DNA from: a virus
DNA: 21,045 nucleotides
Strand: one strand, 5' to 3'
Virus record (IMG/VR): IMGVR_UViG_3300018405_000075
Coordinates: 1 to 21,045 of that record
The position numbers were made by a program, and so were the translations under genes. Positions within the stretch are counted from its first letter, which is position 1. The number at the start of each line of letters is the position of its first letter. A model generated the notes under the pieces. The model had not been told where the DNA came from, searched no databases, and saw only the letters and a program-made list of their open reading frames with translations. Shown piece after piece: positions 2,352 through 4,763 of the stretch.

Positions 2352-4763
2352 CTAGTAAACGTACGTGTTGCGCGACTTTACCGCATGATGCGCATGTTTT
2401 CTAGCGCGGGCGTCGCGCGCGTTGCCATCGGCGAACGCCATCATATTGTACTGAAAAGCGTCGTGCACGTGGCTGTATTCGTTTTTCTCGGGGCTGTCCG
2501 CCTTGACTCCTTTGCGGTTTATCGCGTAGCGGTAGCCTGCCTGGAACCCGATTATCAGTTTCTTACAGCTTGGATCGATCAGTACCGCGGGGCCTGCCTC
2601 GGTCAACAAAGACAGCCCGTCCTCCACCGCGCCTAAGCGAGCGGCTAAGACGTTGCTCGATGCTGGCACTACCTTGACCCCTAGTTCGCGCTCAACCACG
2701 CTGGCTACGGTAGCCTCGTCTGTCTGGGCACGTTGCTTGGTTGCAGGGTCCGCCGCGATAATCATTTTGCAGTCTCGGAACCGCTGGTTAATCAGGGGTT
2801 TGACCTTCTCGCGGCAGAACCGCTTGGCGCCCATGCCGTCGCTGGTCAACTCGGCCAGCACCAGTACACGGCCAAAACTATCCTGTTGTGAGAACGTGGC
2901 CGCCGGTGTAAGCCCTGCGTCGAAACCCATGATGATCGGCAGGTGTGGGTTGTATTTCAACGGCTGCTTAGCGCCGTGCAGCTCCGAGTTGAACATCTTG
3001 TACACGGGTTTGCCGCGTTGGCTGAACCCCCACAGCACCTTGATGAACTGGCTGACCCATGCTTCGGTCTTACCCTTTGCCAGTTCCATATAATACTCAC
3101 TACTGTCTGGGTCGTACGGTGGCAAGTTTTCCAAGTTCTCGGCATCTGGGCTGAACCCGCTGGGTTGGACGAAGTAGTTCAGCACTTCCTGCTGCAGCTT
3201 CGCTCCACCCTCTTCGTCTGGCCACTCATAGTTGAGCCAGTCGTACCACCAGGCGTCCTGCGTGCCTGGGTTCGATGCGCCCCAGATACCCTTCCAGGTA
3301 CAGCCGCCCTCTTTCTTCGACGGAAAGCGACCACAGCGTGACTGCAAGGCGTCAACAATCTCACGTGGGATCTCCACGAACTCATCCAGCATAGCCCCTG
3401 TGATCTCCAGAGACAGTACACTCGATACGTCATCCGCGGTATCCAGTGCTCGGAACATAACCTCGCAGTGCACGTCACTGAATCGGAACGTAAACGTCTT
3501 CGGGGTTGCGCGCCATTCACCGGCGATGCCAGGTTTGAACCACTGGAAGAATGATTTGAGCGTGGTGTCCTGCAGTTCCTTGTTCGTGTTACGCACCACT
3601 ACGAACCGCGTGTATCGGATGCCGTCTTCGGGGTTGGGCACCTGGCGTTTGGCGTGGAACAGAATTTTCATCAGGCAGGCTACTGACTTGCCCGAGTTGC
3701 CAGTAACGAACACCCGGCCGTTGTGTCGAGCCAAAAAGAAACTGGACGGGGTGCGGAAGCAGTATTGTTTGCCGCCTGGCGCCGGTACTTCGACACTCTC
3801 ATACGTCTCAGATTCTTTTACGCAGACCGCCGCCTTGCGGCTGCCCTTGGGCGATATGTGGACCGTGTATGTGGGTTTCCAGTTTGGGTTCTCGGGGTAG
3901 GTGTACGTGCTTATGGTTGCTCGACCACCTGTAGCGTGGGCCACGTATTGGATGAAGTCCGCGTCTCCTTTTGAGTTGGTAGAGAACCGGGTGTCTGGAC
4001 CCTCGAACAAACCGTCCCAATGCGACATTTCGTCGATGATCACATTTAGCTCGGTATTGTTCGCTGCCCACCACTGGGGGGTATCGAACGTCTTGCCCAT
4101 GTATGGGCTGTCAAACCTAAAGCACGTCTCTGACGGTCTGCCTGGGTATGTAGATTCTTTGTAGCTGACACCGCACGCCTTGAGTAATTCGCGAAGCCTG
4201 ATTTTCTTACGTTCTTTGCGCACGACAATGTGACACCATCGTCTTTTGTTCGTGGTTTTTTTGCCCGGCGCCGGGAAATGTCCATCCGCATGTATAGCTA
4301 CCGCCAGACGTAGAATGCGGCCAGACAATCCGGTGCCTGGGGCATCGACACAGAACGAGGTCGGTATTCGACGCACGCTCGGTTTGTCGTGTATTTTACC
4401 GGCCGGCACAACGCGGAAGTCACCCTTGTAATCGTAGTACGGAACGCGATGGTTCTCGGACAAGACCATGGATAGGGACCGCTCATTGCGGAAGTGAATC
4501 ATTTTCTCGGCAGGGGCCACTATGTACCCAAGTGGGTCTACCAATGTGACGCAGCCACCTGTGGGGTCGTTTATGGGTGATGGGGTCCACTGCGCCACCT
4601 TATCACCTGGTTCGTACTCATCGACCCGCTTCCACCCTCGGGCGGTCAAGAACTCGGTATCCCCAGACACGGGACCGACCGGACCCACGACGAAGGTATA
4701 TTTCTTGAGGCTTTGGATTACGGCCTCACCTGTAGGGGTCGGTGTGTAGTTTACGTCGCTCAT
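2352..4763 (-). CDS. terL: Large terminase subunit precursor containing an intein
   Basis: An 803-residue precursor. Removing the intein (residues 31 to 356) leaves 477 residues, normal for a phage packaging ATPase/nuclease. The joined halves recreate a perfect P-loop, GPVG plus SGKS. Walker B is GAMLDEF, with D460 and E461. The C-terminal RNase H-like nuclease has acidic residues in IIMGFDAG (D615), IIAADPA (D672) and SHVHDAFQY (D768). The protein cuts concatemers and drives DNA into the procapsid through the portal, using the small subunit for recognition. It starts at an ATG at 4763 with AAGGT about 10 bases upstream and stops at TAG. Because the intein splits the ATP-binding loop, packaging should need splicing. 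Confidence 0.95.
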   Translation of the reverse strand: MSDVNYTPTPTGEAVIQSLKKYTFVVGPVGPVSGDTEFLTARGWKRVDEYEPGDKVAQWTPSPINDPTGGCVTLVDPLGYIVAPAEKMIHFRNERSLSMVLSENHRVPYYDYKGDFRVVPAGKIHDKPSVRRIPTSFCVDAPGTGLSGRILRLAVAIHADGHFPAPGKKTTNKRRWCHIVVRKERKKIRLRELLKACGVSYKESTYPGRPSETCFRFDSPYMGKTFDTPQWWAANNTELNVIIDEMSHWDGLFEGPDTRFSTNSKGDADFIQYVAHATGGRATISTYTYPENPNWKPTYTVHISPKGSRKAAVCVKESETYESVEVPAPGGKQYCFRTPSSFFLARHNGRVFVTGNSGKSVACLMKILFHAKRQVPNPEDGIRYTRFVVVRNTNKELQDTTLKSFFQWFKPGIAGEWRATPKTFTFRFSDVHCEVMFRALDTADDVSSVLSLEITGAMLDEFVEIPREIVDALQSRCGRFPSKKEGGCTWKGIWGASNPGTQDAWWYDWLNYEWPDEEGGAKLQQEVLNYFVQPSGFSPDAENLENLPPYDPDSSEYYMELAKGKTEAWVSQFIKVLWGFSQRGKPVYKMFNSELHGAKQPLKYNPHLPIIMGFDAGLTPAATFSQQDSFGRVLVLAELTSDGMGAKRFCREKVKPLINQRFRDCKMIIAADPATKQRAQTDEATVASVVERELGVKVVPASSNVLAARLGAVEDGLSLLTEAGPAVLIDPSCKKLIIGFQAGYRYAINRKGVKADSPEKNEYSHVHDAFQYNMMAFADGNARDARARKHAHHAVKSRNTYVY
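3696..4673 (-). other. Intein with LAGLIDADG homing endonuclease, in the terminase P-loop
   Basis: This is an in-frame protein insertion, residues 31 to 356 of the precursor. The N-terminal block is PVSGDTEFL, with Pro instead of the usual Cys/Ser/Ala at position 1. Block B is LSENH. The C-terminal blocks are KQYCFRT and NGRVFVTGN, followed by Ser as the first C-extein residue. Cys334 takes the place of the usual Asp in the VYDL-type block F, and Thr354 is two residues before the terminal Asn356. These traits resemble class 3 inteins, where an internal Cys attacks the N-terminal junction. The Trp expected in block B is not evident (the residues after His are RVP). Between the splicing blocks are two LAGLIDADG-like helices, LAVAIHADG (D160) and IIDEMSHWDG (D250), so the endonuclease may still be active and spread the intein. 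Confidence 0.9.

Follow-up and report, generated by a model that had tools for sequence, protein, structure and literature searches.

The window, by which we mean the whole 21,045-nucleotide stretch analysed here (viral record IMGVR_UViG_3300018405_000075), carries on its minus strand the gene for a phage terminase large subunit (TerL), which is interrupted in frame by an intein. The gene is divided as follows.

2352..4763, minus strand: terminase large subunit ORF with the in-frame intein inside; precursor of 803 aa (open reading frame, homology and PHROG terminase families)
4674..4763, minus strand: N-extein, 30 aa, whose C-terminal end FVVGPVG is the first half of Walker A (delimited by the empty Rollin allele)
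3696..4673, minus strand: intein, 326 aa, precursor residues 31-356 (delimited by the Rollin allele and homologues at the same site)
2352..3695, minus strand: C-extein, 447 aa, from SGKS onward, stop included

Over query residues 338-803, the C-extein shares 71.9% identity with a hypothetical protein from Pseudomonas phage Rollin, and its identity to annotated terminases is about 27-35%. The Rollin terminase is intein-free and reads KKYTFVIGPVGSGKSVSCI, whereas the window reads KKYTFVVGPVG, then the intein, then SGKSVACL. Rollin is thus a natural empty allele that fixes both intein junctions, and in the precursor sequence GPVG and SGKS form an uninterrupted Walker A once the intein is removed. 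The initial annotation had placed an intein at 3696-4673 between GPVG and SGKS, and the ORF and the empty allele show these coordinates to be exact. Beyond the terminase the window is also phage, with matches to head-tail connector, dUTPase and exonuclease families; we found no near-identical phage record for the whole window and no tRNA in it. Searches of Pfam and NCBIfam with the intein gave no intein match at useful scores, PF14528 found nothing in the window record, and TIGR01445 was reached by 6/56 family members with E values up to 0.1. One PHROG, phrog_32482 (annotated PhoH-like), matches the window across intein residues 2-326, so this family profile contains an intein and may mislabel intein-bearing proteins.

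The residues relevant to splicing are located as follows.

4671..4673, minus strand: Pro1, codon CCC, where a Cys1 nucleophile would stand
4458..4460, minus strand: Ser72, block B position 7 (B:7), in the motif SxxH
4449..4451, minus strand: His75, block B position 10 (B:10), invariant in 138/138 distinct family members
4443..4445, minus strand: Val77, block B position 12 (B:12), which is Trp in WCT class 3 inteins
3759..3761, minus strand: Cys305, block F position 4 (F:4), proposed initiating nucleophile, invariant in 138/138
3702..3704, minus strand: Thr324, block G position 5 (G:5)
3696..3698, minus strand: Asn326, C-terminal residue, proposed to cyclise
3693..3695, minus strand: Ser+1, first C-extein residue

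Block B reads LSENHRVPYY, block F reads KQYCF, and the C-terminus VFVTGN, in which Gly325 is penultimate, is followed by Ser+1. The reading of Pro1, KQYCF, a Thr two residues before the final Asn, a penultimate Gly and Ser+1 in the initial annotation was therefore right, although the block F cysteine given there as Cys334 is in fact intein residue 305, or precursor residue 335 counted from the ATG. The annotation had also noted that the Trp expected of class 3 is not evident. An alignment of block B confirms its absence: His75 corresponds to B:10, so that, with the spacing of H65/W67 in MchDnaB1 (PMC7664689), B:12 is Val77. Class 3 inteins are defined in PMC5222942 by Trp B:12, Cys F:4 and Thr G:5 (WCT). 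By this strict definition the window intein has the Cys and the Thr, and with Pro1 its sequence has no Cys, Ser or Thr at position 1, as also expected, but it lacks the Trp. It does fall under the wider class 3 rule described in PMC7891396 (no Cys at the N-terminal end, Cys at C2:4). Class 1 inteins have Cys, Ser or Thr at position 1, and the Pro1 of the window intein does not agree with that class.

The middle of the intein encodes a predicted homing endonuclease.

4281..4313, minus strand: first LAGLIDADG-type motif, LRLAVAIHADG (Asp130)
4011..4043, minus strand: second LAGLIDADG-type motif, VIIDEMSHWDG (Asp220)
3804..4331, minus strand: endonuclease domain, limits approximate (helices of the AlphaFold2 model; matches to TliVMA, PI-SceI and I-DmoI)

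An AlphaFold2 model built from 37 sequences with five extein residues on each side (pLDDT 92.9, pTM 0.91) predicts a splicing domain plus an endonuclease. The two motifs with their acidic residues and the predicted HINT-plus-endonuclease fold are those of a LAGLIDADG homing intein. In structural comparisons the model matched endonuclease-containing inteins best (TliVMA, Z 23.8 over 296 residues; Foldseek E 2.8e-14). The first structure consisting of a splicing domain only is AceL NrdHF (Z 18.7, rmsd 2.2, 150/154 residues), below which come Hedgehog (16.0), the class 1 NpuDnaB intein (15.5) and the WCT inteins Msm (14.0) and Mch DnaB-1 (13.8); the WCT class 3 entries 6bs8, 6riy and 6rix thus stand lower down in the structure list. 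The family profile gave the same splicing-domain neighbour, AceL NrdHF being its best PDB match (E 1.7e-12), and no WCT class 3 structure was among the profile-search matches listed.

Tblastn with the window intein matched 276 of 50,697 phage records. The matches examined have Cys1 together with Cys F:4, and their host genes include PhoH, primase/helicase, RtcB, RecD-like and nucleotide reductase genes. We combined five productive IMG/VR scans, one GTDB genome scan and the phage rows into 193 aligned rows, of which 138 were distinct at 95% identity after removal of near-copies. Dropped before counting were L071 and L072 (the contig starts inside the intein), L127 (a repeat of L125 in its visible sequence), one of 126 later loci (no full-length match), and L023, L024, repeats of contigs already in the set, 14 near-copies. 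A further IMG/VR scan restricted to terminases found nothing, probably because its patterns were strict.

Position 1 is Cys in 127 of the 138 distinct inteins, Pro in nine and Ala in two. His B:10, Cys F:4, the Gly before Asn and the final Asn do not vary at all (138/138 each), so that the penultimate Gly is unremarkable in this family. G:5 is Thr in 109, Ser in 23, Cys in five and His in one; B:12 is Val in 74, Met in 34, Ile in 11, Leu in seven, Cys in five, Phe, Thr and Trp in two each and His in one. The conservation of Cys F:4 is partly built in, since four of the five productive IMG/VR scans used a pattern containing YCF, and the share of Pro1 is not a frequency estimate, since one scan pattern fixed Cys or Ala at position 1. 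The fifth productive IMG/VR scan had neither constraint, and the 24 named-phage rows, which came from tblastn without a YCF pattern, all have both Cys F:4 (24/24) and Cys1 (24/24). Because nearly all relatives have Cys1, the window intein appears to be a Cys1 replacement inside a family that carries Cys1 plus Cys F:4.

All nine Pro1 inteins lie in the terminase Walker A, between G-P-x-G and S-(G/A)-K-(S/T). A slightly wider pattern for this site collects 39 distinct rows, 30 with Cys1 and nine with Pro1. The nine keep Thr G:5, Ser B:7, Ser+1, Gly-1 and both catalytic Asp residues of the endonuclease (9/9 each), and their B:12 residue is Val, Leu or Met. Both Ala1 rows lie in RtcB, between VDIG and CGM, and are 70% identical. 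In the rows examined the position 1 codon is TGY for Cys and CCN for Pro, which means at least two base changes between the two states.

Several other features of the family were seen. All nine Pro1 alleles read GGNCCNNNNGGN followed across the junction by CCN (window 4671-4685), giving a five-base GG-N-CC echo nine bases apart. This could possibly reflect slippage, or chance given the fixed Walker A codons; because the upstream half of the echo is fixed by the Walker A motif, we leave slippage as an idea only. Residue 55 of the intein is Ala in 6/7 Pro1 rows and Cys in 39/60 Cys1 rows, with too few independent pairs for a paired test; Cys55 might be a redox partner of Cys1. The inteins in the TerL of Gordonia phage GordTnk2 (L123) and the portal of Gordonia phage Woes (L124) have Cys1 together with the full WCT set. 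Escherichia phages 19-1-2 and 18-1-2 (L007, L126; Avunavirus) carry family inteins in both primase/helicase and terminase genes. The terminase on the Nitrospira MAG contig NSJL01000006.1 (L120) has an apparent second, unrelated-looking intein downstream of the Walker A one, starting with CYDDQTEIL, and L074, whose C-extein is equally long (807 aa), may resemble it.

We built trees with residue 1 excluded throughout. In a 68-row tree the window, L001, L002, L025 and L026 form a clade (support 100/100) that sits within a 25-row, mostly Cys1 clade (99/97). The window intein is thus nested among Cys1 inteins, in trees made without any WCT intein lacking Cys1; searches for such inteins starting from two phage inteins returned only Cys1 among the sequences examined. 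With the first seven Pro1 rows, three changes were needed, but the AU test did not reject a single origin (p 0.11; 0.145). With wider sampling, a 42-row tree required five changes, all five forced by well-supported branches. A realigned tree from which L171, L253 and L073 were omitted again required five, two of them forced, and rejected the nine Pro1 inteins as one clade (AU p 4.36e-66). The strength of this rejection comes from L183, a Pro1 intein that is sister to the Cys1 intein L151 (support 100/99, 72% identical); if L183 is left out, p rises to 0.040, a marginal rejection. These trees suggest that at least two origins of Pro1 are firm and five are likely. Parsimony favours loss of Cys1 as the direction, given the 127/138 rows with Cys1, and the trees themselves do not fix it.

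The intein and terminase trees also differ from each other. The L088 terminase nests with those of L025 and L026 (100/100), whereas its Cys1 intein nests with those of L036, L039, L044 and L047 (100/99), and in the terminase tree the intein-free Rollin terminase adjoins L001 inside the window group (98/92). This disagreement fits gain, loss and replacement by homing. Together with the catalytic acidic residues and the predicted fold, it makes an active homing endonuclease plausible.

The five inteins of the window clade are under purifying selection, with synonymous differences of 0.73-0.80 per site against nonsynonymous differences of 0.23-0.34. At all nine Pro1 loci the reading frame stays open across the terminase, although L025 and L141 have no ATG in the N-extein stretch examined. 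The Pro1 anatomy is more than a chance finding, since eight other terminases share it and purifying selection acts on the five closest inteins.

Based on these sequence comparisons and on analogy with known inteins, we consider that the insert in the terminase Walker A is most probably an active intein of the LAGLIDADG type that splices without a position 1 nucleophile by attack of Cys305, in a class 3-like manner, and that is derived from Cys1 plus Cys F:4 inteins (probability about 0.78). By the chemistry of AceL NrdHF and class 3 inteins, His75, held by Thr324, and Ser72 would distort and polarise the Gly-Pro bond, and Cys305 would attack the Gly-1 carbonyl at this strained bond. A branched thioester would form on Cys305, the N-extein would pass to Ser+1, and Asn326 would cyclise, after which an O-to-N shift would join GPVG to SGKS. 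The ancestors would have carried both Cys1 and Cys F:4, and Cys1 could be lost because the second cysteine was already present; in terminases Pro would have replaced it more than once. The endonuclease, if active as supposed, would carry the intein into terminase genes that lack it. Two features count against the proposed splicing route: the WCT Trp is absent, and with Pro1 the bond to be cleaved is a prolyl amide. A prolyl amide twists more easily than an ordinary amide, and Pro1 may help by easing the twist of the scissile bond. In the accessible literature we found no splicing-tested intein with Pro1. Position 1 is sensitive in AceL NrdHF, where changing Ala1 to Gly abolished splicing (PMC7891396).

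Other explanations have to be considered. Since position 1 has no nucleophile and +1 has one, Ser in all nine Pro1 inteins, Ser+1 might attack the Gly-Pro bond directly, as in class 2, with Cys305 serving only a structural role. Direct attack by the +1 residue is the KlbA-type route, and according to PMC3196547 class 2 had been seen only in KlbA genes, whereas the host here is TerL and +1 is Ser. According to PMC5222942, Cys+1 dominates outside class 3, Ser+1 or Thr+1 being a class 3 feature, and even Cys+1 did not let the Bvi IcmO intein splice by the class 2 route. The retention of Cys F:4 in 138/138 members also speaks against a purely structural cysteine, and we regard direct attack by Ser+1 as unlikely. 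It is also quite unlikely that the intein fails to splice, or does so very slowly, and that terminase is supplied by a co-infecting phage. Published substitutions of position 1 in class 1 inteins do block splicing, and for the early class 3 inteins a rescue by co-infecting phages has been suggested (PMC3196547). However, saturated synonymous sites with limited protein change in the window clade argue against a dead intein, as do nine distinct Pro1 sequences with open exteins and the apparently repeated origin of Pro1.

The initial annotation had described the intein as class 3-like without the Trp and perhaps a variant of the class. As a mechanism this description holds, but as membership of the monophyletic WCT group with secondary loss of Trp it does not, as far as our tests go. 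Position 1, Cys F:4 and Thr G:5 would all fit such a member, yet the window intein is nested within a set of Cys1 inteins whose B:12 residue is Val, Met or Ile (in the tree made without WCT inteins lacking Cys1), and in the structural comparison AceL NrdHF and several class 1 inteins score higher than the WCT DnaB inteins. Both results make this origin improbable. A displaced N-terminal junction can be set aside almost completely. The sequence PVSGD does offer a Ser at position 3 that might act as a normal class 1 nucleophile, but Cys1 relatives commonly have Ser3 as well, position 3 is Pro in L119, and the product would read GPVGPVSGKS, two residues longer than the Rollin allele. We therefore rejected Ser3 as the first residue on the Rollin allele and on position 3 of the relatives.

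For initiation by Cys305, the preferred reading, the wider meaning concerns how class 3 inteins arise. They have been described as monophyletic, descending from one phage ancestor (PMC3196547), and direct conversion of class 1 to class 3 was argued to be unlikely from a failed engineering attempt (PMC7664689). We lean somewhat toward the view that class 3 splicing represents a grade, attained repeatedly, and not a single lineage, with Cys1 dropped independently in terminases (for Pro, with five changes on the best trees) and in RtcB (for Ala). The Cys1 plus Cys F:4 relatives are candidate intermediates, perhaps able to start from Cys F:4, and if they are, the supposed barrier between class 1 and class 3 would be removed. 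Natural pairs such as L183 (Pro1) and L151 (Cys1), 72% identical, make this step testable by a one-residue swap, and the Pro1 inteins offer a contiguous, Trp-less set for protein engineering. Trp-less inteins with Cys F:4 are already published, AceL NrdHF being the example. What appears new from the sequences is a Trp-less class 3-like intein that groups within Cys1 inteins, and the repeated appearance of Pro1. In the literature searched, with subscription journals mostly outside our reach, we found no report of repeated replacement of Cys1 by Pro1.

Among known systems, the inteins TerL1-a to -e of mycobacteriophages are LAGLIDADG inteins in terminase ATPase motifs like that of the window, and some were shown to cut and splice, but they occupy other insertion points, TerL1-a lying between Lys and Thr of Walker A; in its available text this survey mentions no classes other than 1 and WCT class 3 (PMC5050341). 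The WCT class 3 inteins (Msm and Mch DnaB-1, MP-Be DnaB, Dra Snf2) share with the window intein a Cys F:4 that takes the place of position 1, Thr G:5 and a hydroxyl residue at +1 (Ser or Thr there, Ser here). Unlike it, they have Trp at B:12 where the window intein has Val, and in Msm DnaB-1 the block B motif is DxxH and the residue before the last is His (PMC6195587), against SxxH and Gly in the window intein.

AceL NrdHF (PDB 6zgq) is much closer in its splicing residues, with no nucleophile at position 1, Cys F:4, Thr G:5 and SxxH, and with neither Trp at B:12 nor His before the last Asn. PMC7891396 reports for it a class 3 mechanism with an MCT triplet in place of WCT, no His at C1:6 or C2:13, and a strained bond at the N-terminal junction; its His B:10 mutant is dead, Cys124 (F:4) is the branch point, and the Thr mutant is about tenfold slower. 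It differs in being a split intein of 146 aa in NrdHF with Ala1 and Met B:12 (PMC7891396), whereas the window intein is contiguous, lies in TerL, contains a LAGLIDADG domain and has Pro1 and Val B:12. The same study counted 1701 inteins without an N-terminal Cys and with Cys at C2:4, 6.1% of which deviate at the Trp, and terminase inteins like that of the window may be among them. By sequence and tree, the window intein belongs with the Cys1 plus Cys F:4 inteins of phage TerL, PhoH, RtcB, primase/helicase, RecD-like and NrdA/B genes; these retain Cys1, and 30 of the Cys1 rows occupy the very TerL site that is interrupted in the window.
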